In this document: piece by piece, positions 1 to 51,178 of the stretch
How positions within the stretch are numbered: the stretch's first letter is position 1
Layout of the letters: every line of letters begins with the position of its first letter
From: Streptomyces sp. TRM68416
Lineage (GTDB): Bacteria; Actinomycetota; Actinomycetes; Streptomycetales; Streptomycetaceae
DNA length: 64,000 bases
NCBI RefSeq assembly: GCF_014596915.1
Contig: NZ_JACVWU010000017.1
Span: forward strand, 1-64,000
Direction: 5' to 3'
Position numbers and translations under genes: made by a program
Notes under the pieces: model-generated
What the model was told of the DNA's origin: nothing
Databases searched by the model: none
Seen by the model: only the letters and a program-made list of their open reading frames with translations

Positions 1-171
1 GCTAGTTGCTCTGCCGGCCGCAGTGGTGCCCTGGTGTTCTGCGGCCGGTGCGGCGAAATCGGGCGCAGGAGAGTCGACTTCGCATGTCATCGGCGGCCGT
101 TCAGCCATGGCGGAGATTTGATTCGTTGGGCGGCGGAGCCTGGCGGGTGTCGAGGCGCCGGGATTGGTCAT
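1..171 (-). CDS. Start of an unassigned gene cut by the window edge (conjugation cluster)
   Basis: Reading leftwards, an open frame begins with ATG at 171 and runs to the window edge without a stop (57 codons). Its ATG overlaps the stop of the small frame at 168-290 (ATGA), as in translationally coupled operons. The visible part begins MTNPGASTPARLRRP, is rich in Pro, Ala, Arg and Thr, and shows no domain. In related actinobacterial conjugative elements the gene after the VirB4-like ATPase is often another transfer ATPase or coupling protein; here that is inference from position only. Confidence 0.4.
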   Translation of the reverse strand, partial: MTNPGASTPARLRRPTNQISAMAERPPMTCEVDSPAPDFAAPAAEHQGTTAAGRATS

Positions 172-290
172 GGGCACTGAACGGGCCTGTGGCAGGGGAT
201 ATGGCCGTGAGAGGTGTTGACTGCCGTGGCGCGGAGGTAGCTCTGGACGAGGCGATGCATCGCGCGGCGGATCTTGTACTGCTGAGACAT
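168..290 (-). CDS. Small 40-residue frame downstream of the VirB4-like gene
   Basis: A leftward ATG frame of 40 codons follows the VirB4-like gene after about 80 bases. An AGGAAG stretch lies upstream of the ATG at somewhat long spacing, and its TGA overlaps the ATG of the next frame. The peptide is basic (begins MSQQYKIRRAMHRL) with no known motif. It could be a small structural protein or a leader for the next gene; the frame may also be fortuitous. Confidence 0.3.
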   Translation of the reverse strand: MSQQYKIRRAMHRLVQSYLRATAVNTSHGHIPCHRPVQCP

Positions 291-370
291 GAAGGGGACT
301 TCCTAGGAACGCTCGGGGCGGGAAGAGGCGGGGGCCGGGACGTGGCGCCGGCCCCGAATGGTGGGATTGA

Positions 371-5394: not shown

Positions 5395-6082
5395 TCAGGG
5401 CGCGACGTTCGGCAGCACGCCGACCAGGGCACAGGCCTCATCGGGGCGGCACTGGACGGCGAGCGTGGTGGAGCGGGACTCGGCCCCGGACCCGGAGCCC
5501 TTCCAAGCGATGGACTGCTTGCCGGTGACCGTGACGGCGTAGACGTACGCCTCGGTGATCGCACCGGGGTCCTCGGCCAGGGCGGTCTTGAACGCCTGCG
5601 GGAAGTGGCCCTCGCCGACCTTGGCGGTCGCGCGCTGCTGGTTGTCGTGCATCCGCGACCACAGCACCGGGCTGGGAATCTGGTCGGAGACGGAGCCCCA
5701 GTCGGCGTACTTCTTCTCGCCGGTCATCCACCGCTTAAGGCCGGCGACGTGCTCGGCACGCGAAAAGGACCGGGTGTCGTACGTCCACAGGACCTTGGTG
5801 GCCGCCTTGGCGAAGACGATCGGATCGCTCGTCCTGGGCGGCGCTGCGACAGCCTCGCCCTCATCGGCGGTCGCCTCCGGCGAAGCGGCCGGCGGCGTGG
5901 ATGTCGGGCTCGGGGAGGGCTGCGCGGAGGCGAGGCTCTCCGCACGGGTCAGATACGCGACGAGACCGGCGACGGCCAGCAGCACGACGAGCACGAGGCC
6001 GCCCATCAGGGCACGTCGCAGGACCGAGGAGGGCGCCCCCGTAGGTGCGCTCCTGGGCGGCGAGGGAATGTTTCTTCGGCAT
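5395..6082 (-). CDS. Single-pass conjugation protein, frame broken by one base
   Basis: The long frame 5395-6006 begins at an ATG with no ribosome site, inside what looks like coding sequence: its upstream in-frame codons read SAPTGAPSSVLRRAL before MGGLVLVV. A better start is the ATG at 6082, which overlaps the previous stop (TGATG) and reads MPKKHSLAAQERTYG. The two frames join if one base is removed from the run of five C at 6036-6040, giving a 228-residue protein: cytoplasmic tail, one membrane helix (about residues 33-51), Ser/Pro linker, then an extracellular domain like those of TcpC/VirB8-type transfer proteins (inference). Either a sequencing error or a real frameshift mutation. Confidence 0.65.
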
Positions 6083-6390
6083 CAGTGGACCTGCGTTCCC
6101 ATTGCCGAGAAGAACGCGACGATGCCGTTGGCCGCGCCGAGCAGCAGCGCGCACCCGGCGGCGATGACCGTGCCCTTCTTCCCGTTCGCCTCGGCCTGGT
6201 GACCGCCGCTGTGGTGACCCCACGCCCAGACCATGGCGGAGATGGCCAGGGCGCCGACCACCGCGATGATCCCGAAGAGGTTGATCGAGGAGACGACGTT
6301 CTTCAGCACGCTGAGGCCGGGGAGACCGCCCTCCTTCGGTGTGATGCCGGGGCTGTACGCCAGATACTGGGCGTGCTGCATGAGCTTCAC
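6082..6390 (-). CDS. Small two-helix membrane protein (DUF6112-like)
   Basis: 102 residues from a GTG at 6390 with GGAG 6-7 bases upstream; an ATG three codons later is possible. Two hydrophobic stretches (LFGIIAVVGALAISAMVWAW and VIAAGCALLLGAANGIVAFF) flank a short charged loop, and the N-terminal YSPGITPKEGGLPGL segment is polar. Small two-helix proteins of this kind, which I associate with DUF6112, accompany transfer genes in Streptomyces elements and resemble VirB2/TrbC-type subunits in layout (inference). Its stop overlaps the likely ATG of the next gene. About 77 bases separate it from the wall hydrolase gene. Confidence 0.72.
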   Translation of the reverse strand: MKLMQHAQYLAYSPGITPKEGGLPGLSVLKNVVSSINLFGIIAVVGALAISAMVWAWGHHSGGHQAEANGKKGTVIAAGCALLLGAANGIVAFFSAMGTQVH

Positions 6391-6467
6391 TTGGAACTCC
6401 AGTGCGATTTTGGGCGCGCGAGGGCCCGAGAGGAGATGGAGCGAGGGGAGGGGGAGAAAGGGGCCGG

Positions 6468-7610
6468 TCAGACGACCCGGCGGGCGGCGACGATGTCTGC
6501 GCGCCAGTCGGCGAGGGTCGAGATCTTGACCACGTCGCCGGTCTTGGGGGCCTGCAGAATCAAGCCCTGGCCAATGAACATCCCGACGTGTTCGGGTGCC
6601 GCGGCCGTGCCGCGGGTGAACAGGAGGTCCCCCGGCTTGAGGGCGTCGACGCTGACTGCCTTGCCCTCCTTGACCTGCGTGTACGTGGTTCGGGAGATCG
6701 AGACACCGCCGGCCTTGTACGACGCCTGCATCAGAGACGAGCAGTCCCACCGGCCCATCGGGTCCCGGCCGTGCGGATCTGAGCAGTTGCCGCCCCACTG
6801 ATACGGCGTACCGAGCTGACCAAGACCCCAACGGATCGCTGTACGCACCGACTTGGGCGCGCTGGCCGGGACCTCGTAGCCCTCGGGTATGGAGCCCGCG
6901 GGAGTCGGGCCGAAGGAGGCCCCGTCCCCGCCGGTGCCGCACGCGGCAGCCGCCGAGGAGGACGTCTGCTCGGCCACACTGCCGGTGTCGCCGCCCTTGC
7001 CGGAACCTTCGTCCTGGCCGCGCGACTTGGCGATGCCCTTCTGCAGGGCCGTGGCCAGCGGCTCCCACTTCGCGTACGCGTCGGGATAGCCGCTCTTCTG
7101 AACCGCCTGTGCGGCCTGGGCGACGGTCATCGACTGCCAGCCCGAGACCTTGAGTAGGCCCTCGTAGAACTTCGTCGAGGCGTGCACCGGATCGCGAACC
7201 TCGGCAGCCGTACCCCAACCCTGGCTGGGGCGCTGCTGGAAGAGGCCGAGCGAATCGCGATCCCCGTAATCCAGGTTCCGCAGCCCCGACTCCTGCAGCG
7301 CCGTGGCCAGGGCAACGATCTGCCCCCGGACCGGCACGTTCATCGCGATGCCAGTGGCCTGGATCGTCTCGGCGTTCGCTATCTGCTCCACGGGTTGAGA
7401 AAGCCCCGAAACAGACACGGACCCCTTGCCGTCGCCCTTGAGGATGGACTTCACCAGCTTCGCGACCTCCGCACTGTCCACAGCCCGTGTGCCGTCCGCG
7501 GAACAGGCGGCCTGAGCACTGCTGGAACCTGCGAGAGCGGCAGCGAACGGCGCTATCAACAACGTCGGGCCGAGCGCCACGGCCCCTGCTATGGCGATGG
7601 CCTTCTTCAC
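6468..7610 (-). CDS. Secreted lytic transglycosylase - NlpC/P60 peptidase for conjugation
   Basis: 380 residues from the GTG at 7610, giving a clean signal peptide (start VKKAIAIAG, cleavage after SSSAQA). An SLT-like domain carries the catalytic Glu in LQESGL (about residue 107) and DSLGLFQQRPSQGWG. After a Gly/Ser linker follows an NlpC/P60 domain with catalytic Cys in RWDCSSL (about 290) and His in PEHVGMF (about 341). Such two-domain hydrolases open peptidoglycan for the mating channel, like VirB1 or CwlT. The GTG overlaps the TGA of a 25-codon leader frame (7607-7684), so translation may be coupled; a GTG five codons upstream (7625) also exists but lacks a ribosome site. Confidence 0.88.
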   Translation of the reverse strand: MKKAIAIAGAVALGPTLLIAPFAAALAGSSSAQAACSADGTRAVDSAEVAKLVKSILKGDGKGSVSVSGLSQPVEQIANAETIQATGIAMNVPVRGQIVALATALQESGLRNLDYGDRDSLGLFQQRPSQGWGTAAEVRDPVHASTKFYEGLLKVSGWQSMTVAQAAQAVQKSGYPDAYAKWEPLATALQKGIAKSRGQDEGSGKGGDTGSVAEQTSSSAAAACGTGGDGASFGPTPAGSIPEGYEVPASAPKSVRTAIRWGLGQLGTPYQWGGNCSDPHGRDPMGRWDCSSLMQASYKAGGVSISRTTYTQVKEGKAVSVDALKPGDLLFTRGTAAAPEHVGMFIGQGLILQAPKTGDVVKISTLADWRADIVAARRVV

Positions 7611-8237: not shown

Positions 8238-8987
8238 ATGCCGTACACCCTTCACCGAGGCGACGCGCTGACCGCCCTCGCGGGCATCCCCGACACCAGC
8301 GTCGATGCCGTCATCACCGACCCGCCCTACAACAGCGGTGGCCGAACAAGCAGCGAGCGCACAGGCCGCTCAGCGCGCGCGAAGTACACCTCGGCGGATG
8401 CCGAGCACGACCTCGCCAACTTCCCCGGCGAGAACCGAGACCAGCGCTCGTACGGCTTCTGGCTCACCCTCCTGCTCACCGAGTCCTATCGCGCGACCGT
8501 CGAGTCCGGCACCGCGCTTGTCTTCACAGACTGGCGGCAGTTGCCGACGACGACGGACGCGCTCCAGGCTGCCGACTGGACCTGGCGGGGGATCGCCTCG
8601 TGGCACAAGCCGGTCTCCCGGCCACAGAAGGGCCGACTCAAGCAGTCCTGCGAGTACATCGTGTGGGGCACCAAGGGGCCGGTGGATCCCAACCGTAACC
8701 CCGTCTATCTGCCAGGCCTTTATACGGCGAGCCAGCCCCAGAAGGGCCGCGTGCACATCACTCAAAAACCCGTGGAAGTGATGCAGGAGCTGGTGAAGAT
8801 CTGCCCGCCAGGAGGAACGGTCCTCGACCCATTCGCAGGCTCCGGTTCTACAGGAGTCGCCGCCCTGCGGGAGGGACGAGAGTTCATAGGTATTGAACTC
8901 TCCGAGCACTATGCTGGCATCGCTGAGGAGCGCCTGCGGGCTGCCCTGACGCAAGATGACTTCGAACCCGCTGGGCCCGAGGAGTGA
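8238..8987 (+). CDS. Beta-class site-specific DNA methyltransferase
   Basis: 249 residues. Motif IV DPPY is at 28-31 (VITDPPYNSGG) and motif I FAGSGST at about 199, after the motif X-like stretch HITQKPVEVMQELV; this order marks the beta class, which makes N6-methyladenine or N4-methylcytosine using S-adenosylmethionine. The length fits small orphan or phage/plasmid methyltransferases that protect mobile DNA from restriction. A GAGAGA stretch precedes the ATG. It is convergent with a PD-(D/E)xK-like gene across a shared terminator, so an R-M pair is possible but unproven. Target sequence cannot be read from the protein. Confidence 0.88.
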   Translation: MPYTLHRGDALTALAGIPDTSVDAVITDPPYNSGGRTSSERTGRSARAKYTSADAEHDLANFPGENRDQRSYGFWLTLLLTESYRATVESGTALVFTDWRQLPTTTDALQAADWTWRGIASWHKPVSRPQKGRLKQSCEYIVWGTKGPVDPNRNPVYLPGLYTASQPQKGRVHITQKPVEVMQELVKICPPGGTVLDPFAGSGSTGVAALREGREFIGIELSEHYAGIAEERLRAALTQDDFEPAGPEE

Positions 8988-9025
8988 GAGCGAGAGGCTC
9001 CGGCGCCGGGGCGGGGGCACAGAAG

Positions 9026-9066
9026 AGGGCGGTTGCATCACCGTAAACCGGCTATGCAACCGCCCT
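9026..9066. terminator. Bidirectional hairpin terminator
   Basis: Arms AGGGCGGTTGCAT (9026-9038) and ATGCAACCGCCCT (9054-9066) pair perfectly over 13 bases around a 15-base loop, between the convergent genes ending at 8987 and 9082. Confidence 0.85.
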
Positions 9067-9081
9067 TGTGCGTGAGGGGAG

Positions 9082-9999
9082 TCAGGATGCCTCGACGCTC
9101 TGTTGGATCAGGGCAACTGACCGTGCGAGGTCCGCACGCGATCCGATCCGTAGCTCCACGCCGTCCCGGATACCGAGACATCCCAGCCCCCGAATGTCTC
9201 GCGAGAAACCGTCGTGCAGTTCGACCGAGTCCGGATTCAGTCTCAGGTTCACCACAAGCACTCGGTTGCGCGGCTGAACGCGTACGGTGGCAACGTTCTT
9301 GATCCGTCGGTACGCGATGTAGTGGACCTGGGTCTCCTTCTGCACGTCGCTGTGGGACAGAAGCACTTCGTCCAGATCCCGGCAGAGGTCCCTCAGATCC
9401 TGCGGCGCCTCGTCGAGGTACTGCTGAACCGACTTGGGAGCAGGCGAGCCCGAAGATCGAGGGGCGTCGAGCATCGTCCGCCCTGAAGAAGGGGCGACGC
9501 CGGCCTTCGCGGCAACGAGCTGCAGCGTGAGGACGTCGTCGAAGATTCGGTACGTTACCAGGTCGATCCTGCGACCGATCATCTCGATCGCCACGATGTC
9601 ATGGCGCGTGAAGGCCCCGGCGACGCAGACGATCCGGGGATTGGACCAGTCGATCTCGGCAGCGGCCTCAGCGCCGATTTTGTTCTTGACCACACTCTCG
9701 AACTCATGGTGGTGGTCATGGAGCCACGACAGATAGGAGAGCCCCTGGTTGATGACGTTCTGGTCGCGGGAGCGCTTGTACTCCACGATGACCGGTGTCC
9801 CGCTCTCGTCCAAGCCGAGGGAGTCGATCCGGCCACTGTGACGACCGGTGCGGTACTCGGTCACAAGGAAGCGGATGCCGAGCATGGCCTCCATGTTGGC
9901 TTCGATCAGCGCCTGCAGTTCGCGTTCGACCCCCACGGACGCCCCGGATATCTCTGTGGCTCGCCCGCCTCGCAGCCTGAAGACCTTCAGGTTGCTCAT
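9082..9999 (-). CDS. PD-(D/E)xK-like protein with DUF5655-type C terminus
   Basis: 305 residues from ATG 9999, chosen because GGGGAG lies just upstream; an in-frame ATG at 10026 lacks such a site. The N-terminal half has the pattern RIDSLGLDESGTPVIVEYKRS, an Asp followed by ExK, as in PD-(D/E)xK nucleases of the NucS/DUF91 type, followed by NQGLSYLSWL. The C-terminal 100 residues resemble the DUF5655 domain. Proteins of this layout are widespread in actinobacteria without known role. Being convergent with the methyltransferase on a mobile element it could be a restriction or DNA-repair nuclease (inference). Confidence 0.65.
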   Translation of the reverse strand: MSNLKVFRLRGGRATEISGASVGVERELQALIEANMEAMLGIRFLVTEYRTGRHSGRIDSLGLDESGTPVIVEYKRSRDQNVINQGLSYLSWLHDHHHEFESVVKNKIGAEAAAEIDWSNPRIVCVAGAFTRHDIVAIEMIGRRIDLVTYRIFDDVLTLQLVAAKAGVAPSSGRTMLDAPRSSGSPAPKSVQQYLDEAPQDLRDLCRDLDEVLLSHSDVQKETQVHYIAYRRIKNVATVRVQPRNRVLVVNLRLNPDSVELHDGFSRDIRGLGCLGIRDGVELRIGSRADLARSVALIQQSVEAS

Positions 10000-10196
10000 G
10001 TCTCTCCCCAACTCCACCTTGATCACTGAGTACGGACAATCGCGGTGAAGAGCGGGTTATTCCCCGGACTCCGATTCAGCCGTACGGGCTGAGCCGGTCA
10101 AGGTTGAACCTTCGACGCCGTGGGATCGAGTGGCAGCAGCCGGGCCGGCTACTCCCGCTGCCGACAAGACGTGAACGGTAGGTGTGGCCGTCTTTG

Positions 10197-10379
10197 CTAT
10201 CTGTCCTTGGCGAACTCGACGAAGACGGCCCACGCTGCGGGCTGGATGGCCAGGATTCCGCGGCTGCGGGCCTTGGTGTCCCGGACCATCACCAATTCCG
10301 GTTTGTTGTCGGCCACTTCCACACAGTTCTCCGTGCCCGTGTAGGAGCTGGTACGCCAATTCGGGGTCGCAGGGGACAT
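10197..10379 (-). CDS. DUF397 protein, partner of the XRE regulator
   Basis: 60 residues with the DUF397 signature: WRTSSYTGTENCVEVA near the N terminus and VMVRDTKARSRGILAI in the middle. These small proteins almost always sit beside a DUF5753-containing XRE regulator and are thought to modulate it (Scr1/Scr2 antitoxin-like pairs). AGGAG overlapping the upstream stop gives a good ribosome site, and the gap to the regulator gene is only 9 bases, so the two are co-transcribed. Confidence 0.88.
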   Translation of the reverse strand: MSPATPNWRTSSYTGTENCVEVADNKPELVMVRDTKARSRGILAIQPAAWAVFVEFAKDR

Positions 10380-10388
10380 GGTGCTCTC

Positions 10389-11243
10389 CTAGTCGTTCGG
10401 CATCTGATCAAAATGTCGGGTAGCGGTGAGGACGAGGTCACGGAGGGCGGTGCCGTAGACCGCGGACTGCTTCAACAGGGCGAAGGCCTTGGCATACAGG
10501 TCGATCTCTCGTGGCTGGGTGACGGAGAACTCCGCCGAGTAGGTCTCCACCAGAACGAGCTTGTCGTCGAACATGGAGAAGCCGTGACCGAGCCAGATCT
10601 CGGTGGCTGCGGCACGGGGGACGATGCCGAGGCTCACGCGGGGCAGTCCCATCAGGGCCAGGAGGCGGTCGAGTTGAGCCTTCATGACCTCTGGCCCGCC
10701 TACGTTGGAGTACAGGGCCTGTTCGCCGAGGAGCACGTTGTAGATCCGGTTGCCCTCGTAGAGGTACCGCTGCCGTTCGAGACGCTTGCCGACGGCGACC
10801 TCGGTGTCGTTGGGATACTCCAGGAAACTGACGGCCTGCTGGAAGATCTCGGCGGCGTAGTCCGCCGTCTGGAAGGTCCCCCAGATCATGTTGGGGTGCC
10901 AGATGCGGAACACCTTGGTCTTGGCATAGACGGGCAGGGACTTCTTCTGCCTGGTCTCGGCGCCCGTCTGGACCTGCCGGCGCCACTCAAGCCACAGCTC
11001 GTCGATGTGGCGGACTGTGGCGATCAGGTCGTCGATGTGTTGCTCGTGCCGGGTCGCCGTGCACCAGGCCCTGATGTCCTGCTCGCTGGCGTTCTGCTTA
11101 CCGTGCTCAAGGCGAGAGACCTTGGACTCTTGCCAGTTGAGGGCGCGCGCCAGGGCCCGGCCGCTGGTGAATCCGGCATCCTTCCGGAAGCCGCGCAGCC
11201 GGGCACCCAGTGCCTCGCGCGTTTCTTGTGCTTGGTTGCTCAC
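10389..11243 (-). CDS. XRE-family regulator with DUF5753 (Scr1-like)
   Basis: 284 residues from GTG 11243 (VSNQAQETREALGARL); longer frames run into the upstream gene. The N-terminal helix-turn-helix is at about 10-65 (LGARLRGFRKDAGFTSGRALARAL, then SKVSRLEHGK). The remaining 200 residues match the DUF5753 ligand or partner domain (QTADYAAEIF, RLERQRYLYE, IVPRAAATEIWLGHGF). It probably regulates its own block and perhaps the element. It starts 7 bases after the DUF6879 gene and ends 9 bases before DUF397, forming one leftward operon. No strong ribosome site; coupled translation is likely. Confidence 0.85.
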   Translation of the reverse strand: MSNQAQETREALGARLRGFRKDAGFTSGRALARALNWQESKVSRLEHGKQNASEQDIRAWCTATRHEQHIDDLIATVRHIDELWLEWRRQVQTGAETRQKKSLPVYAKTKVFRIWHPNMIWGTFQTADYAAEIFQQAVSFLEYPNDTEVAVGKRLERQRYLYEGNRIYNVLLGEQALYSNVGGPEVMKAQLDRLLALMGLPRVSLGIVPRAAATEIWLGHGFSMFDDKLVLVETYSAEFSVTQPREIDLYAKAFALLKQSAVYGTALRDLVLTATRHFDQMPND

Positions 11244-11250
11244 GGATGGT

Positions 11251-11775
11251 TCAGGGCTTGTACTCGCGGTGCGGGATGGCCAGGTCCCACAGCAGATCTC
11301 GGACGCGGACGCACTCAGCAACGGCCTTGGCGGCCTCGACCAGCTCGGAGCCGAGCACGCGGCCGTCGGTGTCGAGGTGCCCCACGGCCAGGAGGCGACC
11401 GTCGAACAACCACCAGTCGTTGCCGCCGACGGGGAAGACCAGTTCGTCGGGAAGCCGGTGACGCGGCAGCCATCGGATCTCCTCGCCGGCCTCCTCGTTG
11501 TGGGGAGTAGCGGCGTACTCCCACTGGATGTAGGGAGAGTGGGGCTCGGTCACAACGCGCACGCGACGGACGGTCTTGCCCTCTCCGGTGACACGCTTGA
11601 TGAGCTGCGCCCACGGCTCCATGTACGAGTAGTCGACCGGCGCTCCCCGAAGCCAGCACTCAAACGGCCCGTCCTCATCCGGGACCGAGTAGTCGTCCCT
11701 CAGCTCCAGATGGAAGGCGTCCTTCGTGAAGGTCTCAAAGAGCCGGTTGCGCTTGGCGCTGGAGATCAACTCCAC
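11251..11775 (-). CDS. DUF6879 family protein
   Basis: 174 residues from GTG 11775 with GGAGGA upstream. Features typical of DUF6879: FHLELRDDYSVPDEDGPF near the N terminus, the Arg-rich RRVRVVTEPHSPYIQWEY in the middle, and DWWLFDGRLLAVGHLD followed by a VRDLLWDLAIPH tail. The family has no known activity and occurs with XRE/DUF397 genes in Streptomyces. It overlaps the upstream 139-residue gene by 41 bases and is followed after 7 bases by the XRE gene. Confidence 0.8.
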   Translation of the reverse strand: MELISSAKRNRLFETFTKDAFHLELRDDYSVPDEDGPFECWLRGAPVDYSYMEPWAQLIKRVTGEGKTVRRVRVVTEPHSPYIQWEYAATPHNEEAGEEIRWLPRHRLPDELVFPVGGNDWWLFDGRLLAVGHLDTDGRVLGSELVEAAKAVAECVRVRDLLWDLAIPHREYKP

Positions 11776-12345: not shown

Positions 12346-12702
12346 GTGGTGGCTACCGTGACCAACGAACCCGAGGCTTCAACCGTCGACGCGGAGTCGA
12401 TCGCGGACAGCACCGACGCCGCCCTTCGGATGCAGCTCGGGACCTCGACCCGCGAGGACATCAATGCCCGAACGGCCGTCGTCATCAAGCATTTGAACCA
12501 CCTTCTCGCCCAGGATCTCGGCGCCGACGGGGATCCCGAGGTCAGGGACCTGTTCAGACAGGCCTACCGGCTACTGGAGCTGACGGGCCGCCCGACGAAG
12601 GAAACCGCGGCCTTAAACGCCTTCTTCTATATGCGCGACGTGGCCAACGTGGCCCGGCGTCTGCTGTGGATCTACACCGAGCCGAGCCACCATGCGACCT
12701 GA
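12346..12702 (+). CDS. Hypothetical protein, first gene of the rightward radical-SAM block
   Basis: 118 residues from GTG 12346 with GGGGAG upstream. The sequence is helical and acidic at the start (EPEASTVDAESIADSTDAAL) and later has VVIKHLNHLLAQDL and FRQAYRLLELTGRPTKETAAL. No family recognised. It overlaps the next small gene by 11 bases, so it is the likely first cistron of the block leading to the radical-SAM gene. Confidence 0.65.
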   Translation: MVATVTNEPEASTVDAESIADSTDAALRMQLGTSTREDINARTAVVIKHLNHLLAQDLGADGDPEVRDLFRQAYRLLELTGRPTKETAALNAFFYMRDVANVARRLLWIYTEPSHHAT

Positions 12703-12901
12703 TCACCCCATGCTGCTTCACCGTTCGTCCGGGCTCAGCAGCACTAACGGTAAGCCCCAGCCAGGCTTCTGGTGCGAGTGGCGTCACACCGACGGAGAGC
12801 GGATCCGGTCTGCATCGCAGCCAACTCCGGAGTCGGCCGTGCGATGGGCCCGCCTCACTATCCGCATCATCGCCTCGGCCGTCGGGCCGTTACCCCATTG
12901 A
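12692..12901 (+). CDS. Small hypothetical protein
   Basis: 69 residues beginning at an ATG that overlaps the previous stop. The central part GFWCEWRHTDGERIRSAS followed by PTPESAVRWARLTIR looks like a folded small domain with a two-stranded sheet and one helix, and codon use fits coding sequence. No family recognised; an accessory of the radical-SAM block by position. Confidence 0.5.
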   Translation: MRPDHPMLLHRSSGLSSTNGKPQPGFWCEWRHTDGERIRSASQPTPESAVRWARLTIRIIASAVGPLPH

Positions 12902-12941
12902 CCGTCTGGTCGACCGGAGCGATCCCTTGTGGGAAGACGCC

Positions 12942-13094
12942 GTGTCGGCCCTTCAGAAGGGCACGGACTTCACGCTGCCGCTGGTGGCGGAGCCGTTCTC
13001 CTTTGCATGGCACGCCCGCCCTGCGCTGTTCGTAGCTGTCGTCGGCGGCAAGCCGCTGCCACACCGAACAACCGGGGGCATGCCATGGGGCTGA
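12942..13094 (+). CDS. Small hypothetical protein (about 50 residues)
   Basis: In-frame sequence from GTG 12942 (GGGAAG just upstream) or TTG 12927 reads VSALQKGTDFTLPLVAEPF, then FSFAWHARPALFVAVVGG, and stops in an overlap with the next ATG. The hydrophobic pattern and tight packing with neighbours suggest a real gene, but the start is uncertain and there is no recognised family. Confidence 0.4.
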   Translation: MSALQKGTDFTLPLVAEPFSFAWHARPALFVAVVGGKPLPHRTTGGMPWG

Positions 13095-13519
13095 GACCAG
13101 AGGAATTGTGGGGGCGCTTCGACTGGCAGGACGGCAGCTGCTTCAAGTGCGAGCAGACCGGTGTCCCGGTAGCAGAAGTCGGCGACATCGCGGTGGCCGA
13201 CGTGGTCTTCCCGCTCGTCGCCTGCCAGCGGTGTGTGTTCCGGCTCGAACAGCTCCACTGGACGATGAGTGAACGAGCCGTCCGTCGCCGAGGCGCCGTC
13301 ACATCCGGGGATGAGTTGCGTCCCCCCTGGCCAGTGGTCGTCTCCAATGCCGTTCCCGAGACCGCCCGCCCATGTCGCGTAGAGGACGGCCAGGCCCTGA
13401 AGCGGCCATATGCCCCCGCCCCTGCTGCTCGAACTGGAGGTTCCCCCACCTCAGAAGGACAGGTCGCAGCAGGGGCGGGATCCAGTCTCAAGAGAAGAGG
13501 TAAAGGATGCACCGGCTGA
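13085..13519 (+). CDS. Small Cys4 zinc-ribbon-like protein
   Basis: 144 residues from ATG 13085, overlapping the previous stop. Two CxxC knuckles at C19-C22 (CFKC) and C47-C50 (CQRC) could bind one zinc ion. After about residue 65 the sequence becomes low in order, and the last part runs through the large hairpin at 13415-13479, so the C terminus may be dispensable. Its stop overlaps the start of the radical-SAM gene by 13 bases. Role unknown; nucleic-acid binding or a partner of the maturase is possible. Confidence 0.55.
   Translation: MGLRPEELWGRFDWQDGSCFKCEQTGVPVAEVGDIAVADVVFPLVACQRCVFRLEQLHWTMSERAVRRRGAVTSGDELRPPWPVVVSNAVPETARPCRVEDGQALKRPYAPAPAARTGGSPTSEGQVAAGAGSSLKRRGKGCTG
13415..13479. 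promoter_or_regulatory. Long hairpin just before the radical-SAM gene
   Basis: Perfect 14-base arms CCCGCCCCTGCTGC (13415-13428) and GCAGCAGGGGCGGG (13466-13479) enclose a 37-base loop containing a second pairing GGAGGT/ACCTC. It ends about 27 bases before the ATG at 13507. It may attenuate or stabilise the message between the zinc-ribbon and radical-SAM cistrons. Confidence 0.6.
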
Positions 13520-14631
13520 TCGTTAGCCCGTTCCTGGACGGCTACCTGGCTGTTCGTCCGGGGAGTACCGTGTGCGTGCGCCTGCCAGCCTCGCATTACG
13601 AGGACCTACGGCAATATGCCCGAGTCGACGACCGCGTGCCCGATTGGCTGGCGGCCACCGCGACCGAAGCCTGGGACCTCGACCTGGACGGCCAGAGCTG
13701 CCAGGAGGCACTCCTGGTGCGCGAACCGACCGAGCTCGCCTTCGCCCGGGCGAGTTGGGAGATCAATCTCTACTGCAACTTCGGTTGCAAGCACTGCTAC
13801 CTCGGCGAACGCCCCCTCGCCGGCCTGGGGTGGGACGACAAGGTCAAGCTGATCGACATCTTCCGCGACTCCGGGGTTCTCTGGCTCCAGATCACGGGCG
13901 GGGAACCGACAGTCGATCCCGACTTCGAGGGCGTCTACCGGTACGCGTACCGCCAGGGCATGATGCTCACGGTCTTGACGAACGCCTCGCGCCTGTGGAA
14001 ACCCGAGCTGCTGCGGCTGTTCCGGGACTGCCCGCCATACCGCGTCGTTGTCACCATGTACGGCGCCACGGAGGACTCCTTCGACGAGCTCACCCAGCGC
14101 AAGGGTGCCTGGAAGAACTTCCGAAAGGGCATGGCTGCAGCCCGCAATGCCGACCTGCCCCTGCGAGTGTCCGTCGTAGTCACAGAGGACAATGCCCACG
14201 AGGTCGACGCTATGGCGGCCCTGGTTGAGAGCTGGGGCCTCGACTACCACGTCTACACCAACATGCAGCCGACCTTCTCCGGCACGGGCGAGCCGCTGCT
14301 TGTCCAATCCACCGAGCACCTGCGTAAGCGCCCGGTCTTCCAGGGCTGCAACGCGGGCGTGACCTTCTTCCACGCTGACCCGCACGCCAGGGTCTCGATC
14401 TGGATCGGACGCGATGACCAGATCGACCTCATGGCTGAAGGCATCGATGGCCTTCGCCGACTCGGAGCGATCTCCGATCGGCTCATGCTTCGCACCGGTG
14501 GCTGTCCGGGCTGCTCGCTCTCCGGTACCTGCCGGGTGTGCCGACCGCTCGCCAAGCTCTACCAGGAGGCGAAGGCACCACTGAACACCTACTGCCAGCA
14601 CGGAGACACCAAGGAGATGGTGCCCTCATGA
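13507..14631 (+). CDS. Radical-SAM/SPASM peptide-modifying enzyme
   Basis: 374 residues. The [4Fe-4S]-SAM motif CNFGCKHC (CX3CX2C) is at C90, C94 and C97, followed by ITGGEPTVDPDF, the SAM-binding GGEP motif. The C-terminal part has C333, C336, C342, C345 and C363, a SPASM or twitch-like cluster that holds auxiliary iron-sulfur centres in maturases of ribosomally made peptides. The first 80 residues may form a peptide-recognition domain (inference). GAGGTAAAGG precedes the ATG. Its stop overlaps the start of a 55-residue Cys-containing peptide gene, its probable substrate, and a GNAT-like gene follows. Reaction type (thioether, C-C link or other) cannot be told from sequence. Confidence 0.88.
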   Translation: MHRLIVSPFLDGYLAVRPGSTVCVRLPASHYEDLRQYARVDDRVPDWLAATATEAWDLDLDGQSCQEALLVREPTELAFARASWEINLYCNFGCKHCYLGERPLAGLGWDDKVKLIDIFRDSGVLWLQITGGEPTVDPDFEGVYRYAYRQGMMLTVLTNASRLWKPELLRLFRDCPPYRVVVTMYGATEDSFDELTQRKGAWKNFRKGMAAARNADLPLRVSVVVTEDNAHEVDAMAALVESWGLDYHVYTNMQPTFSGTGEPLLVQSTEHLRKRPVFQGCNAGVTFFHADPHARVSIWIGRDDQIDLMAEGIDGLRRLGAISDRLMLRTGGCPGCSLSGTCRVCRPLAKLYQEAKAPLNTYCQHGDTKEMVPS

Positions 14632-14795
14632 GTCCTGTTCCCGTCGAGATCCTGACCCGCCGTCCGCCGGCCATTCGCCCGGTCCTTGCCACCGGCCTCG
14701 TTGCCACTACCGCCGTTGTCATCGAGGTCGACGCCGACGCCCTGATGGAGGGCAGCGCCTGCTCGTGCGCAGCCGGCGACGACAACCCGAACTGA
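14628..14795 (+). CDS. Candidate RiPP precursor peptide
   Basis: 55 residues, starting ATGA over the stop of the radical-SAM gene. The N-terminal part (MSPVPVEILTRRPPAIRP) and a hydrophobic stretch (VLATGLVATTAVVIEV) would be the leader; the C-terminal SACSCAAGDDNPN holds the only two Cys, as CSC, and would be the core. Small size, coupling to a SPASM radical-SAM gene and a Cys-containing acidic end all fit a substrate of that enzyme. No protease or transporter gene is visible nearby. The alternative is a simple accessory subunit. Confidence 0.65.
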   Translation: MSPVPVEILTRRPPAIRPVLATGLVATTAVVIEVDADALMEGSACSCAAGDDNPN

Positions 14796-14878
14796 CCCCC
14801 TTCGGTCACCTGCCCTCAGGCCCTGGCGCATCCGCGTCGGGGTCTGAGACCTGAGCACGAGATGAGTACCCTGAAGCA

Positions 14879-15748
14879 ATGCGATTCCGCTGGGACTGGC
14901 TACGTCCAGTGGTGCTGGCGCCCTACGTGCCGACGATCGGGCCGGTCCATCCGTCCGTACTGACCGAGGATCTGTTCACGGACACCCTGACCGCGGCTTC
15001 CACCGATCGGTGGTTCCTTCGCTACGACAAGGACATCCGTTGGTCCGACAGCAAGGCCGAAACCGTCCTCGTCGAGAGCATTGTCCATCGGCCCGGCGAG
15101 ACGTTGATCCCCGCGCTGTCCCGGCGAGGTGCTGGCATGATCAAGGTCCACCTTTACGGCATCGAACCAAGCAGCGTGCTCGCCGCCACCGAACTCGCAC
15201 AGAAGCTGGCCGCCGACCACGGTGCCAGCAAGTTGCGCATCGTACGGTTCCTCGGTCCCGAGTCTCCGAGCGGCCGCGGTACGCGCATCCAACTGAAGGA
15301 CTTCAGGACGACCCTCTGCATCCCTCCGGACGGCCCAGTGCGCTCCAACGATGAATGGCCAGCGGGCGTACGAGATACCTTCGCCGACTTCGCCGAACAG
15401 ATGGCATCCGACGGCTTCGTCTTCCTCTCTGGGCAGATGCGGGCCGGAACGGTCGGCCCAGTCCTGACCGCCGTCTCGGACAGCAGAGTGGCCGGCGCTA
15501 TCGGCCCAATGGAGATCCGTCGCGACGCGATTGGCACCCCGCAACTGATGCCGCAGTACTTCGGTGTCCTCCCAGAGCACCGCGGTGAAGGCCTGGGAAG
15601 GCTGATGTGGCGGGCGGCTATGCACTGGGGCCAGACCAATGGGGCGGCATATCAGCTCCTCCAAACGGAGGTCGGTGGCCCGTCGGATCGCCTCTGTCGG
15701 TCCGAAGGACTGACCTCGCTCGGTTTCATCCACTGGCAGTCCGCTTGA
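14879..15748 (+). CDS. GNAT-like acetyltransferase of the radical-SAM block
   Basis: 289 residues. The C-terminal 100 residues carry the acetyl-CoA-binding GNAT motif FGVLPEHRGEGLGRLMWRAA followed by NGAAYQLLQTEVGGPSDRL. The N-terminal 170 residues (begins MRFRWDWLRPVVLAP) are unlike common families and may bind the peptide substrate. The start at 14879 has only a weak CTGAAG upstream. About 80 bases after the peptide gene and in the same direction, so it may acetylate the modified peptide or mediate self-protection (inference). Confidence 0.7.
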   Translation: MRFRWDWLRPVVLAPYVPTIGPVHPSVLTEDLFTDTLTAASTDRWFLRYDKDIRWSDSKAETVLVESIVHRPGETLIPALSRRGAGMIKVHLYGIEPSSVLAATELAQKLAADHGASKLRIVRFLGPESPSGRGTRIQLKDFRTTLCIPPDGPVRSNDEWPAGVRDTFADFAEQMASDGFVFLSGQMRAGTVGPVLTAVSDSRVAGAIGPMEIRRDAIGTPQLMPQYFGVLPEHRGEGLGRLMWRAAMHWGQTNGAAYQLLQTEVGGPSDRLCRSEGLTSLGFIHWQSA

Positions 15749-16099: not shown

Positions 16100-17245
16100 T
16101 CACAGGCCGTCGTTGAGGATCCGAGCGGCTCGGCCGATCGACGCCGGCATGAGGTGGCGGTAGATCTTGAAGGTCATGTTGATGTTCTTGTGCCCCATCC
16201 ACTCCGCCACGTCCGTGATGGGTATGCCCCTGGAGAGACAGTTGGACGCGAAGTAATGGCGCAGAGAGTAGGTCGTCAGCTTCCTCGTGATGCCGGCCCT
16301 CTTCTTCGCAATGTTCCACTGGTATTCGAGCGTGGTGTGTGCCCAATGGGCGGACCGCTGGGTCCGGAGAAGGTACCCGTCCGCAGACACGCCGTGGTCC
16401 TTCTCGTACCGCAGGAGTGACTCGCGCACCGTCCAGGGCATCGGAGTTTCGCGAAATTCTCCCGGCTTGCGATGCTTGAGGCGTGACCGCTCGCGCGTCT
16501 TTCCCTCGATCTGTTCGGTGATTCGGTAGACGTCGTCCGCGACCATCCGTTCCGTGTTGGCTGCGTAGGCTTCTCCATTGCGGAGACCACAACCGGACAT
16601 CAGGTCGATGATGACGACGAGGCCGTCGTTGGCGACCGCCTTGAGGGCATGGATCTCGTCCAGCGCCGGAATGGTGATCTTCCGAGGGATGTACTCGGGC
16701 GGTATCACTCCGTCGAAAGGGTCCTCGGTGATGCCTCCCCGGCGACGCGCGTCGAGAAGGATCTTCTTGAGCGTGTCGAAGGAGTTCTGCTGCGCGGCCA
16801 GGCCGACGGAACGTTCCTCCATCGACATGATGAAGTCTTCGACGACGGTCGACGCGAAGGTATTTATCCGGCGGGATTCCAGAACCGGAAGAATATGGCT
16901 GTTCAGGACCTGATTGACCGTGCGGACACTGCCGGAAGCGTAGTGTCGCTGTCGGGTGAGCCACGTGGAGGCGTACGGCCCGAAGCGTTGCTTTCCGATC
17001 TCGCGTTTGAGGTCCGCCTGCTGACGCGGGGTGTTGCTCTTCTCGTTGTAGACCTTGGTGAGCCTCTCGATCGCAGATTGCTGCGTCGAATACCCCGTCT
17101 CCTCGCGCTGGCGGCCTGTTGCATCGCGGTAGCGAATGGCGTAAGGGTGGGGGCATCGGGTCTGGCGGGAACAGGCGCAGACCTTGAAGCAACTGCCCAT
17201 CCCACGGGTGAGTTGGGTCGCCAACGTGCACGTCTCCTGACTCAT
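16100..17245 (-). CDS. int: Tyrosine-type site-specific integrase
   Basis: 381 residues. A Cys-rich N terminus (CFKVCACSRQTRC) leads to an arm-type domain and an SAM-like core-binding domain (about 85-170), then the catalytic domain with Arg in GCGLRNGEA (about 217), the box II stretch YSLRHYFAS, WMGHKNINMTFKIYRHL with the Tyr nucleophile near 362. The usual first His of HxxR is Tyr here, which some integrases tolerate. It would insert and, with Xis, excise the element. The ATG at 17245 lies just inside the right end. No tRNA gene is visible beside it, so the attachment site is not identified. Confidence 0.92.
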   Translation of the reverse strand: MSQETCTLATQLTRGMGSCFKVCACSRQTRCPHPYAIRYRDATGRQREETGYSTQQSAIERLTKVYNEKSNTPRQQADLKREIGKQRFGPYASTWLTRQRHYASGSVRTVNQVLNSHILPVLESRRINTFASTVVEDFIMSMEERSVGLAAQQNSFDTLKKILLDARRRGGITEDPFDGVIPPEYIPRKITIPALDEIHALKAVANDGLVVIIDLMSGCGLRNGEAYAANTERMVADDVYRITEQIEGKTRERSRLKHRKPGEFRETPMPWTVRESLLRYEKDHGVSADGYLLRTQRSAHWAHTTLEYQWNIAKKRAGITRKLTTYSLRHYFASNCLSRGIPITDVAEWMGHKNINMTFKIYRHLMPASIGRAARILNDGL

Positions 17246-43123: not shown

Positions 43124-43618
43124 TCACCGCCTGTAGCCGCGGATGCGGTAGCGCAGGCCGGAGGTCGAGGTCTGCCAGTCGTGGTCCTCGGTGAGCTGCC
43201 ACTCCGGGCCCGGAGTCGGGGCGTAGGTGTCGCCCTCGACCTTCGAGTCGACCTCGGTCACCGACAGCAGCGTGGCGTGGGCCATGGCGGCACGGTAGAT
43301 CTCCCCGCCGCCGATCACCCACACGGCGGTCGGCGCCGACGGGCGGGCCGCGAGGTCGAGGGCCTCGGTGACGGACCCGGCGCGTTCCGCGCCCTCCGCC
43401 GCCCACTGCGGATCGCGTGTCAGGACGATGTTGCGCCGGCCGGACAGCGGGCGGAAGCGGGCGGGCAGGGAGTCCCAGGTGCGGCGTCCCATCACCACGG
43501 GATGCCCCCACGTGGTCGCCTTGAAGTGGGCCATGTCCTCGGGCAGCCGCCACGGAATCGCGTTGTCCGCGCCGATCACACCGTCGAGGCTCTGCGCCCA
43601 GATCAGCCCGACGTTCAC
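43124..43618 (-). CDS. folA: Dihydrofolate reductase
   Basis: 164 residues from GTG 43618, overlapping the thyA stop (GTGTGA). [35 protein letters not shown] with the catalytic acid, [19 protein letters not shown] and [13 protein letters not shown] are the DHFR motifs for NADPH and folate. It regenerates tetrahydrofolate consumed by ThyA, so the two form a dTMP cycle. Confidence 0.93.
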
Positions 43619-44412
43619 ACCGCCACCGGGGCCTTGATCGCCGGGTGGTGACGGTAGCCGACCACTTCCACGTCGGAGTAGGCGTAGTCGAACAGCGAGT
43701 CGGCCCGGCGCAGCCGCAGCTCGGGGAAGTCGTACGGGGTGCGCGAGAGCTGCTCGGTCACCTGCTCCACATGGTTGTCGTAGATGTGGCAGTCGCCGCC
43801 GGTCCAGATGAAGTCACCCGGCTCCAGGCCGACCTGCTGCGCCACCATGTGCGTGAGCAGGGCGTAGCTGGCGATGTTGAACGGGACGCCGAGGAACAGG
43901 TCAGCGCTGCGCTGGTACAGCTGGCAGGAGAGCCGGCCGTCGGCGACGTAGAACTGGAAGAAGGCGTGGCACGGTGCGAGGGCCATCTTGTCCAGCTCGG
44001 CGACGTTCCAGGCGGAGACGATCATCCGGCGGGAGTCCGGGTCGCGGCGCAGCGTGTCGAGGACCTGGGTGATCTGGTCGATGTGGCCGCCGTCGGGTGT
44101 GGGCCAGGAGCGCCACTGGGTGCCGTAGACCGGGCCAAGCTCGCCGTACGGGTCGGCCCACTCGTCCCAGATGGTGACGCCGTGCTTATGGAGCCAATTG
44201 ACGTTTGAATCGCCGCGCAGGAACCACAGCAGCTCGTACACGATGGACTTCAGGTGCACCTTCTTGGTGGTGACCAGCGGGAATCCCTGCGCGAGGTCGT
44301 AGCGCAGTTGGTGCCCGAAGACACTTCGGGTGCCGGTGCCCGTCCGGTCGGCCTTGGCCGTCCCGGAGGTGAGCACACGTCGCAACAGGTCTTCGTACTG
44401 GGTGTCCGCCAC
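43615..44412 (-). CDS. thyA: Thymidylate synthase ThyA
   Basis: 265 residues from GTG 44412; no good ribosome site is visible. Folate and dUMP motifs: [35 protein letters not shown], catalytic Cys in [42 protein letters not shown]. Makes dTMP from dUMP using methylene-tetrahydrofolate. Most Streptomyces also carry the flavin enzyme ThyX; this ThyA with coupled DHFR inside a dormancy island is unexpected. No OsdR-type box is seen before it. Confidence 0.94.
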
Positions 44413-45629: not shown

Positions 45630-45880
45630 CACCAGGGGGTGCGAGTCACCAGAGGCGGTACGAAGCGCCCGGACCGCCCGCCGCCCCGACGGCGCCGGTC
45701 CGCTGCGGTGGCGTCAACGGGGCCATGACTGCGAGCGTCGCCCCGCTGGCCGCTGGCCGCTGCCCGCTGCCCGCTGTCCGCTGTCCGCCGTCCACTGCCG
45801 CCTGTCTGCCAGTCCGCCGTCCGTGCCGAGCGCGGCTGCCATGGCCAGGTAGGCGAGGGTGCCCAGTGGGCGGCAGCCCG

Positions 45881-45894
45881 GGACCGACCGGTCC
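45881..45894. promoter_or_regulatory. Second OsdR/DevR-type box before narG
   Basis: GGACCG-AC-CGGTCC, two mismatches at symmetric positions, 7 bases before the exact box at 45902, as in paired DevR sites. Confidence 0.5.
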
Positions 45895-45901
45895 GCAAGG
45901 C

Positions 45902-45915
45902 GGGCCGTTCGGCCC
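45902..45915. promoter_or_regulatory. OsdR/DevR-type box before narG
   Basis: GGGCCG-TT-CGGCCC, exact, 40 bases before the ATG of narG; TAGCGT at 45941 could be the -10 element of a nearly leaderless message. Confidence 0.7.
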
Positions 45916-45954
45916 AGGGGGCGCGGCCGGGTGCGCCGCCTAGCGTTCCGAGGC

Positions 45955-48900
45955 ATGGAGAACGAGGACAAGGCGCGTCCGCCGCAGCGGCGCGCCGCAG
46001 AGGGCTGGCCCCTGGCCGCGCGCAGGTTGCTGACCCGCCGCGAGGTCTCGGCCGACGGCCGCGCCGTGTTCGGCGAGGGCGACGGCAAGTGGGAGGGCTT
46101 CTACCGGGACCGCTGGGCGCACGACAAGGTGGTGCGCTCCACGCACGGGGTCAACTGCACCGGTTCGTGCTCCTGGATGGTCTACGTCAAGGACGGCATC
46201 ATCACCTGGGAGCACCAGGCGACCGACTACCCGTCGATCGGCACCGACTGCCCCGAGTACGAGCCCCGCGGCTGCCCGCGCGGCGCCTCCTTCTCCTGGT
46301 ACACCTACTCGCCCAGCCGGGTGCGCTACCCGTACGTGCGGGGCGAGCTGCTGAAGCTGTGGCGCGAGGCGCGCCGCCGCCTGGGCGACCCCGTGGCGGC
46401 CTGGGCCGAGATCACCGGCGACCCGGCCAAGGCCCGCGCCTACAAGCGGGCCCGCGGCAAGGGCGGTCTGGTCCGCGCCGACTGGGACGAGGTGGCCGAG
46501 CTGGTCGCCGCCGCCCATGTGCACACCATCAAGGCCTACGGTCCCGACCGCGTCGCCGGCTTCTCGCCGATCCCGGCGATGTCCATGGCCTCCTTCGCCG
46601 CCGGCGCCCGCTTCATGTCGCTGATCGGCGGCACACTGCTGTCCTTCTACGACTGGTACGCCGACCTGCCCATCGCCTCGCCGCAGGTCTTCGGCGACCA
46701 GACGGACGTACCCGAGGCTGCCGACTGGTGGAACGCCGGCTACCTGGTGATGTGGGGCTCCAACATCCCCGTCACCCGCACCCCGGACGCGCACTTCCTC
46801 ACCGAGACCCGCTACAACGGCACCAAGGTCGTCGCGGTCAGCCCCGACTACGCCGACAACGTCAAGTTCGCCGACGAGTGGCTCGCTCCGCACCCCGGCA
46901 CGGACGGGGCGCTGGCCATGGCCATGGGCCACGTGATCCTGCGCGAGTTCCTCGTCGACCGCGAAGTGCCCTACTTCCAGAAGTACTTGAGGACGTTCAC
47001 GGACGCGCCGTTCCTCGTGGCACTGCGCGAGCACGACCACGGTCTCGTTCCCGACGGGTTCCTCACGGCCGCCGACCTCGGCCGCGACGAGGAGACCGAA
47101 GAGAACGCAGCCTTCAAGACCGTGCTGCTGGACCGGGCGACCGGCGAACCGGTCGTCCCCGGCGGCTCGCTCGGCTTCCGCTGGGGGGAGGCCGGGCGGG
47201 GCCGCTGGAACCTCGACCTGGGCGACGTGGTACCCGAGTTGAGCCTGATCGACCGCGCCGAGGACACTGTCGAGATCGCCCTGCCCCGCTTCGACGAGGG
47301 CGCCACCGAGGGCGGCTCGACCATGGTCCGGGGCGTGCCCGTGCGCAGGATCGGCGGACGGCTCGTCACCACCGTCTTCGACCTGATGCTCGCCCAGTAC
47401 GGCATCCAGCGGCCCGGCCTGCCGGGCGTCTGGCCCACCTCGTACGAGGACGCCGCCCAGCCGTACACCCCGGCCTGGCAGGAGACGATCACCTCCGTCC
47501 CCGCCGAGCAGGCCGCCCGCATCGCCCGCGAGTTCGCCCGCAACGCCGAGCGCACCGAGGGCCGTTCGATGATCGCGATGGGCGCGGGCACGAACCACTG
47601 GTTCCACTCCGACACCATCTACCGAGCGTTCCTGGCCTTGACCACCATGACCGGCTGCCAGGGCGTCAACGGCGGTGGCTGGGCCCACTACGTCGGCCAG
47701 GAGAAGATCCGACCGATCACCGGACTGCAGCACCTGGCCTTCGCCTTCGACTGGCAGCGGCCCACCCGGCACATGGCCGGCACCTCGTACTGGTACCTGA
47801 ACACCGACCAGTGGCGCTACGAGGCCTTCGGCCCCGACGAGTTGGCCTCCCCGCTGGGGCAGGGCCGGTTCGCGGGCAAGGGCTTCGCCGACTGCCTCGC
47901 CCAGGCCGTCCGGCTGGGCTGGACGCCGGGCCACCCCGGCTTCAACCGCAACCCGCTGGACCTGACGGACGAGGCGAGGTCTCAAGGGCGTGAGGTCCCC
48001 GAGCACATCGTGGACGAACTCAAGGCCGGACGGCTGAAGTTCGCCGCCGAGGACCCCGACGACCCCGCCAACTTCCCGCGCGTGCTCACCGTCTGGCGGG
48101 CCAACCTGCTCGGCTCCTCCGGCAAGGGCAACGAATACTTCCTGCGCCACCTGCTCGGCACCGACAGCGCCGTGCGCAGCGAGGAGGCCCCGCCCGACGC
48201 CCGCCCGAAGGACGTGGTGTGGCGGGAGGAGGCCCCCGAGGGCAAGCTCGACCTGCTGGTCACCATGGACTTCCGGATGACCTCCACCGGCCTGCTCGCC
48301 GACGTGGTCCTGCCGGCCGCGACCTGGTACGAGAAGGACGACCTGTCCAGCACCGACATGCACCCCTTCGTGCACGCCTTCACCCCGGCCATCGCCCCGC
48401 CCTGGCAGGCACGCAGCGACTACGACACCTTTCTGACGATCGCCGACACATTCAGCGCCCTGGCCGCCGACCACCTCGGCACCCGCACCGACGTCCTCGC
48501 CGTGCCCCTGCTGCACGACACCCTCGACGAACTCGCCCAGCCCGGCGGCGTCGTGAAGGACTGGAAGACGGGGGAGTGCGAGCCGGTCCCCGGCAGGACC
48601 ATGCCGAAGCTCGTCGTCATCGAGCGCGACTACGCCGCCGTAGCCGACAAGATCCGTGCCGTCGGCCCGCTCCTGGACACCCTCGGCACCACCACCAAGG
48701 GCATCACCGTCCACCCCGACCGCGAGATCGACGAACTGCGCCGCCGCTGCGGCACGGTCCGCGACGGAGTCGCCGCCGGCCGGCCCTCGCTGGCCACCGC
48801 CACCGAGATGTGCGAGGCGATCCTCGCCCTGTCCGGCACCACCAACGGCCGCCTCGCCACCGAGGGGTTCCGCGAACTGCAGGCGCAGACCGGCAGCGAA

Positions 48901-49659: not shown

Positions 49660-49660
49660 C

Positions 49661-51174
<1,514 letters not shown>

Positions 51175-51178
<4 letters not shown>

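Follow-up and report, generated by a model that had tools for sequence, protein, structure and literature searches.

The closest described counterparts of the system reported here are radical S-adenosylmethionine (SAM) maturases of ribosomally synthesized and post-translationally modified peptides (RiPPs). As described in PMC9413430, PapB links Cys with the acidic residue of CX3D/E motifs and also tolerates Cys-Xn-Asp spacings of n = 0 to 6. SkfB and CteB carry an N-terminal RiPP recognition element (RRE) according to PMC8172795, and the SPASM seven-Cys motif as given in PMC5715301 contains CX2CX5CX3C. Here we explore a locus in the 64 kb at the start of contig 31 from the 8.86 Mb genome of Streptomyces sp. 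TRM68416 (this whole stretch of 64,000 nucleotides is hereafter the window), in which a radical SAM gene joins a small gene for a putative precursor peptide. The locus belongs to a family of cassettes with a conserved gene pair, two peptide classes, a third gene that swaps between two enzyme types, a linked regulator, and copies on plasmids and in a phage. Very probably this is a RiPP family; it is conserved and mobile, and apparently in no named description so far.

In the mechanism we propose, an RRE-like N terminus of the radical SAM/SPASM enzyme would bind the peptide leader at two blocks, VPVEI and DADALMEG. The enzyme would modify the C-terminal core CSCAAGDDNPN, most likely by a PapB-like thioether between Cys47 and Asp51, and a second enzyme, a tandem GNAT here and an APH-like kinase in other loci, would tailor or neutralise the product; the kinase probably phosphorylates the Tyr that follows the core Pro. 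An upstream XRE regulator, of DUF5753 type here and NsdA-like with TPR elsewhere, would control the operon and may sense the product. We put the probability of the wider mechanism at about 0.8; leader binding, the thioether, Tyr phosphorylation and sensing by the regulator are inferred steps within it.

The enzyme gene (13507..14631, forward strand; PF04055, E 6.6e-16) encodes 374 aa with a SPASM-type C terminus and was studied in a 36-member alignment (A1) and an AlphaFold2 (AF2) model. Its TGA stop overlaps, in an ATGA at 14628, the start of the peptide gene (14628..14795, forward strand), whose 55-residue product is MSPVPVEILTRRPPAIRPVLATGLVATTAVVIEVDADALMEGSACSCAAGDDNPN, with both Cys within the last 11 residues. 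A tandem-GNAT-fold acetyltransferase follows (14879..15748, forward strand; Acetyltransf_1, E 1.2e-4, 22.8 bits with a cut-off of 20.7). A first-pass annotation, made from the letters of the window, had reported this overlap with a CSC peptide whose Cys are confined to the C terminus and a GNAT-like enzyme downstream, and both observations hold.

For comparison, one of 279 records, which had no radical SAM match, was removed, and the loci were then made distinct by an exact 400-base key, giving 167 distinct bacterial loci with the window included. To be picked, a peptide had to contain a Cys and, one or two residues before its end, a Pro; the spacing of Asp or Glu was left free. Such a peptide stands behind the enzyme in 163 of the 167 loci; its start overlaps the enzyme stop by four bases in 104 of these and lies at most 25 bases from it in 157. 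The loci without a readable peptide are L117, which reads CSCDAGDDTP and then runs on, L159, with a shifted tail, L228, from which the enzyme end and the peptide are missing, and L235, whose contig stops 209 bases further on. In every comparison with six close relatives, synonymous divergence of the peptide gene (dS 0.41-0.61) exceeds non-synonymous divergence (dN 0.09-0.24); within the last 13 codons, codon positions 1 and 2 have 0-1 changes each. Because the small frame is conserved and dS exceeds dN in all six comparisons, a chance open reading frame is excluded. Absence of the frame beside homologues was one of the outcomes that the first-pass annotation had named as refuting its proposal, and the frame is retained. 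RefSeq labels the small gene as hypothetical on two plasmids, and a search of the genome for further copies of the peptide found the window copy alone.

Two classes can be told apart among the distinct peptides, the CxC class (113) and the one-Cys class (43). All members of the former, the window included, have Asp or Glu at X3 after the second Cys (Cys47-X3-Asp51 in the window core, 14760..14792, forward strand), and all of the latter have Cys-X2-Asp continuing as Asn-Pro. Two blocks recur in the leader. VPVEI (14637..14651, forward strand) represents VxVx[ILFM], which occurs in 124 of 156 distinct peptides as compared to a mean of 9.5 and a maximum of 17 in shuffled ones, and is absent in, for instance, the peptide of Streptomyces phage Success. 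DADALMEG (14730..14753, forward strand) represents [DNQ]-hydrophobic-[DE], a pattern that 151 of 160 distinct peptides carry (after shuffling, a mean of 15 and a maximum of 29), and the block starts 10 residues before the first core Cys in 102 peptides and 12 residues before it in 36. By eye, the precursors of L298 and L296 apparently carry a VAVEITPR-like leader block two to three times ahead of a single core. The small frame might also be taken for an accessory subunit, binding metal or Fe-S, or for a regulatory leader frame, in line with the CxC motif and the tight gene coupling. The 43 peptides of the one-Cys class, the conserved acidic-Pro tail, the leader blocks and the RRE-like fold all speak against this, and we consider that it is not the substrate to be highly improbable.

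Since the CX3[DE] and CX2D patterns are strict, a Cys-Asp thioether in the core is our leading guess, a tentative one that draws on the analogy with PapB and falls slightly short of an even chance. The bond could instead be a sactionine, linking Cys S to C-alpha, or a cross-link between two carbons, which seems less likely. The C-C cross-linking maturase SuiB is among the best whole-length structural matches of the enzyme, and the StsB and AlbA models match weakly. SkfB, described as a sactionine maturase in PMC8172795, is likewise among the best whole-length matches, but the acidic residue stands at a fixed Cys spacing in 113/113 and 43/43 distinct peptides, which argues against such bonds. 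A route like that to mycofactocin or pyrroloquinoline quinone (PQQ), in which the enzyme would turn the C-terminal residues into a small molecule or cofactor and the GNAT or kinase would serve for tailoring or self-protection, is in our view quite improbable. The mycofactocin maturase is the best match by E-value among the best 25 of 45 NCBIfam families (E 2.9e-20), the tail is conserved, and GNAT and kinase interchange at one position; its 72.7 bits are, however, far from the TIGR03962 cut-off of 265, and the peptides differ in how they end (His, Asn, Phe, Tyr, or Tyr plus one) but are strict in their Cys-Asp spacing.

The enzyme has the radical SAM cluster motif CxxxCxxC as CNFGCKHC (residues 90-97; 13774..13797, forward strand), with the three Cys invariant in 36 of 36 members of A1. 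Seven more Cys, at 281, 299, 333, 336, 342, 345 and 363, are all kept in 35 of the 36, the window copy having six. They stand in the order of the SPASM motif, but the last pair is CX2C where the motif has CX3C. Mean predicted local distance difference test (pLDDT) of the AF2 model is 81.1, with stretches 253-268, 271-280 and 329-345 under 50. Residues ~1-60 (13507..13686, forward strand) are modelled as an RRE-like domain, with strands 4-9, 12-16 and 23-26 followed by helices 28-39 and 46-56, and the alignments with SkfB and SuiB begin inside it. With VIA-align, SkfB matched at Z 21.8 (290 residues, root-mean-square deviation (rmsd) 5.5, model 4..329) and SuiB 5v1s at Z 20.6 (325 residues, rmsd 4.8, model 1..365). 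Six of 50 alignment rows start before residue 50, namely SkfB, three SuiB and two NifB entries, and the remainder, CteB among these (76-77), start at residues 74-80. Judged from the model, the N terminus is likely an RRE.

The window copy differs from its relatives at the second SPASM Cys. Here Trp299 (14401..14403, forward strand) replaces Cys-Lys, TGG standing where six close relatives have TGCAAG, a 3-base in-frame difference; Cys299 is present in 35 of 36 members of A1. Cys-Lys is absent in six of 141 loci checked, five of which are incomplete or misread there, leaving the window as the sole full-length case, and it is kept in 22 of 22 viral loci. By Cys order, which is our own reasoning, position 299 would correspond to PqqE Cys268, which a model in PMC5715301 assigns to the Aux I site. 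According to PMC8172795, thioether formation is lost in AlbA with mutated auxiliary-cluster Cys and in SkfB without its auxiliary cluster. The window copy could thus be decaying or misassembled and yield nothing, whatever the rest of the family does, and we take this as a serious prospect at somewhat below even odds; on the other side, the enzyme, peptide and GNAT frames are all open and the peptide gene has dS above dN. A sequencing error is a possible source of Trp299.

A third gene is found in 164 of the 167 loci, as a tandem GNAT in 76 and an APH-like kinase in 88; one of the three loci with neither is cut by its contig end. RGxGxG, which we take to be the acetyl-CoA loop, is kept across the GNAT family (alignment A2). 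The AF2 model of the window GNAT (pLDDT 92.3) matches structures that include the tandem GNATs VipF and MshD, with Z 12.0-13.6, 217-246 residues and rmsd 3.9-7.1 among the 15 best rows. All 32 kinases compared keep Lys54, Glu69, His161-Thr162, Asn168 and Asp179-Trp180, and at least 90% keep Asp163, as would be expected of an active APH-type kinase.

The residue following the core Pro depends on the third gene: it is Tyr in 88 of 88 kinase loci, and His (56), Asn (7), Phe (7) or Tyr (3) in the 73 GNAT loci with a peptide. Two loci have a peptide and neither gene: L046 with Phe, whose tree neighbours L048 and L070 have a kinase and Tyr, and L141 with Tyr, where an APH-like frame is seen by eye on the opposite strand. 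A quick tree was built from 129 of the 143 loci with complete enzyme and peptide, which allows a rough comparison of rates. The kinase set shows no change of the post-Pro residue over 74 tips and a branch length of 20.67, the GNAT set at least six changes over 53 tips and 9.08; were the GNAT rate to apply, the kinase set should by our calculation show about 14 changes. We read this as good evidence, short of decisive, for a kinase that either acts on the post-Pro Tyr or requires it. Phosphorylation of this Tyr in the kinase type comes near to a coin toss in our estimate, without quite reaching it.

Neighbouring genes were called by a home-made heuristic based on GC3 (GC content at third codon positions), which misses genes, and flanks were counted in the 56 of 61 long loci that have both. 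In 49 of the 56, an XRE-type regulator from one of four families is present in the 5 kb upstream, and in none is there one in the 5 kb beyond the cassette; a HATPase-like family, below Pfam's cut-off, was counted 19 times upstream and once beyond. The regulator type differs from locus to locus, and one representative of the commonest is an NsdA-family TPR-like protein (NF053720, E 8.7e-99). The window has, on the reverse strand, an XRE regulator with DUF5753 (10389..11243; PF19054, E 1e-29; HTH_31, E 1.4e-9) and a DUF397 protein (10197..10379; PF04149, E 8e-16), so that the XRE/DUF397 block of the first-pass annotation is indeed close by. A DUF6879 gene (E 6.6e-58; window 11254-11775) sits between these genes and the cassette. 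In plasmid relative L190 a DUF6415 gene annotated as natural product biosynthesis (6005-6910) lies immediately upstream of the radical SAM gene.

The modified peptide may be kept in the cell as the ligand of the XRE regulator, in a host or prophage-state circuit, and not be secreted as a bacteriocin-like product; about one chance in three seems right to us, and sensing of the product by the regulator is conceivable to the same degree. The upstream XRE position (49/56, and 0/56 downstream), the NsdA-family TPR-like representative of the commonest regulator and the lack of a recurrent recognised exporter are in its favour, as is phage Success, where an XRE regulator of the DUF5753 type, as in the window, and DUF397 stand beside radical SAM-peptide-kinase genes. 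XRE/DUF397 genes are, however, frequent in Streptomyces, the regulator type is variable, secretion may proceed via unlinked systems, and binding is a hypothesis.

Relatives of the enzyme at E 1e-30 or better are present in 58 of 295 genomes of the genus. Under thresholds that differ among the genus, family, class and phylum draws, a second genus draw gave 71 of 392 genomes, a family draw 27 of 101 and another family 6 of 35, a class draw 17 of 394 genomes (5 of 137 genera) and a phylum draw 6 of 296 genomes (1 of 198 genera). The best 80 of 272 relatives at E <= 1e-3, a set that may include other radical SAM families, come from Streptomyces, Kitasatospora, Actinacidiphila, Nocardiopsis, Catellatospora, Glycomyces and other actinomycetes.

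In a plasmid collection eight records cover at least 80% of the enzyme; two of these represent the megaplasmid of one Streptantibioticus strain and one is an 11.85-Mb Nonomuraea record. Among 50,697 phage records a single phage was positive, Streptomyces phage Success (two accessions, host S. lividans JI 1326). Its left end holds XRE, DUF397, the radical SAM gene (labelled as an oxidoreductase), the gene for a peptide of 38 residues with the C terminus GCGDDNPYN, and a kinase, with an integrase gene not far. IMG/VR added 21 contigs; several of these are near-identical to one another, and some may be prophages from sequenced isolates. The radical SAM gene, the peptide and a third gene are present in each of the 22 viral loci; the third is a kinase in 14, all with Tyr, and a GNAT in eight, with His (5), Tyr (2) or Phe (1) after the Pro. 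The plasmid records, phage Success and the IMG/VR contigs support, for the family, the mobility that the first-pass annotation had suggested, but the ends of an element and the conjugation genes of its conjugative element are not established. In the window a tyrosine recombinase (integrase) gene lies beyond the cassette (16100..17245, reverse strand; PF00589, E 2.5e-18). Phage Success gp10 (L280 1593-1925), annotated as a metalloprotease, is a 110-aa frame with a partial match to the TldD/PmbA C-terminal domain; some RiPPs are matured by TldD-type proteases. As a speculation, to which we give low odds, chromosomes, plasmids and temperate phages could share a portable circuit in which a cross-linked peptide, Tyr-phosphorylated or acetylated, is read intracellularly by the XRE regulator and sets host or lysogen behaviour.

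Several points weigh against the proposed mechanism. No product is known for the family, and no equivalog fits the enzyme among the NCBIfam families compared. The Pfam SPASM model is matched by no A1 member at E <= 0.01. The first-pass annotation had suggested structure prediction as a way to find a recognition domain at the enzyme N terminus, and an RRE-like fold did emerge; the fold match is lightly tested, resting on few rows in a region (before residue 75) which the alignment tool marks as barely tested, and the alignment of CteB, an RRE-bearing enzyme according to PMC8172795, begins only at 76-77. The window enzyme may, by analogy, be impaired by the loss of Cys299, and one viral enzyme, L301, has an internal stop in its aligned stretch. 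In the core, the mechanism leaves the first Cys unexplained, 9 of 44 kinase-type CxC cores carry Ser, Asn or Ala in place of the second Asp, and there is no conserved Lys for the GNAT. The kinase family stays just under the Pfam APH cut-off (22.0 of 23.2 bits). The third gene switched just two and three times on two enzyme trees, giving one to two independent kinase/GNAT pairs and no significance (sign test p 1). Finally, neither a peptidase nor an exporter was recognised among the families present in at least four of the 61 long loci, which were mostly judged from first residues.

Upstream of the enzyme gene the first-pass annotation had placed a zinc-ribbon-like gene and three small genes. 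The frames exist, but they have few relatives and are weaker than described, and all four lie outside the conserved core of the cassette. The first (12346..12702, forward strand) encodes 118 aa from a GTG start and belongs to no family; its eight rows of relatives represent seven distinct loci beyond the window (L072 and L092 being one contig), and Pfam at E <= 0.01 gave no match for a relative. A 69-aa frame overlapping it (12692..12901) and a 64-codon frame without a clear start (about 12900-13094) each have a single relative, in L093. The CxxC...CxxC frame of 144 aa, which overlaps the enzyme start (13085..13519, forward strand), is found elsewhere for its first part only, in L093 and weakly in L059; the L093 version lacks the second CxxC and stops after 48 aligned residues. 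Elsewhere in the window, a frame that by eye resembles a DNA methyltransferase lies beside a NucS-C-like gene (8238-10026; NucS_C, E 2e-4, below cut-off). Also by eye, a DHFR-like gene adjoins a thymidylate synthase-like gene (43124-44412), a large pair of open reading frames resembles nitrate reductase alpha and beta subunits (45859-51178), and repetitive frames like translated CRISPR repeats are followed by an apparent type I-E cas operon (53675-63987).

With more than 150 distinct natural precursors and two interchangeable third enzymes, this RiPP family, apparently without a name so far, also provides a natural experiment linking the kinase to a single tyrosine. Since a complete copy is present in a phage recorded from Streptomyces lividans, its function is testable in a laboratory phage-host pair. 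To our knowledge the signals of actinomycete XRE/DUF5753/DUF397 and NsdA-type regulators are poorly known, and if the modified peptide were indeed an intracellular ligand, it would link radical SAM chemistry to these regulators.

A literature search, covering sources other than subscription journals and preprints, found no paper describing such a cassette, and from NCBIfam, Pfam and PADLOC the cassette proteins drew generic radical SAM and GNAT matches and, for APH, sub-threshold ones. In the NCBIfam scan of the 36 enzymes, cut-offs were compared for the window member, for 25 of its 34 families; the other A1 members gave best E-values to 4.9e-25, among 25 of 53 families. Neither the peptide nor the enzyme reached a curated cut-off among the models compared, in agreement with the first-pass annotation, which had recognised no known RiPP class. 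Besides that for the mycofactocin maturase, the models of the sactipeptide maturases AlbA and StsB stayed far under their cut-offs, at 54.2 of 850 and 55.2 of 625 bits, and viperin was dropped at 35.7 of 180 bits (NF038283), the PADLOC pVip match (E 3e-12) covering residues 83-232, the radical SAM core alone. The FxSxx-COOH system was discarded as well, with no listed peptide carrying a C-terminal FxSxx.

The mycofactocin pair MftA/MftC resembles our system in that its maturase model is the best NCBIfam match of the radical SAM enzyme; MftC acts on a C-terminal Val-Tyr. SuiB resembles the enzyme in that structural alignments start at residues 1-3, but identity is 12-15%, and its peptide motif is unrelated to those found here. 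As presented in PMC7159879, the FxSxx-COOH system likewise has a small protein with a conserved C-terminal motif beside a radical SAM/SPASM enzyme and TPR-bearing partners, but the motif is another one, and its zincin-like peptidase and VMAP/AP-ATPase partners are not recognised here. SkfB, AlbA and StsB have a comparable radical SAM core with an auxiliary-cluster Cys region, SkfB being the top whole-length structural match, whereas our peptides have Asp or Glu strictly at a conserved spacing. The ranthipeptide pattern Cys-X3-Asp/Glu is indeed present in all 113 CxC-class peptides, the one-Cys class having CX2D instead. PapA/PapB, in which a leader-dependent radical SAM maturase acts on a Cys-X3-Asp/Glu motif (PMC9413430), would be the nearest analogue in chemistry; PapA has six motifs as opposed to one per peptide here, and the available part of that paper makes no mention of an alternation like that of GNAT and kinase. 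We file the family in no named class, because the curated cut-offs tested were not reached and the bond type is not settled. In our judgement, ranthipeptide and sactipeptide systems are its closest parallels in mode of action, with an alternative of kinase or GNAT added here.

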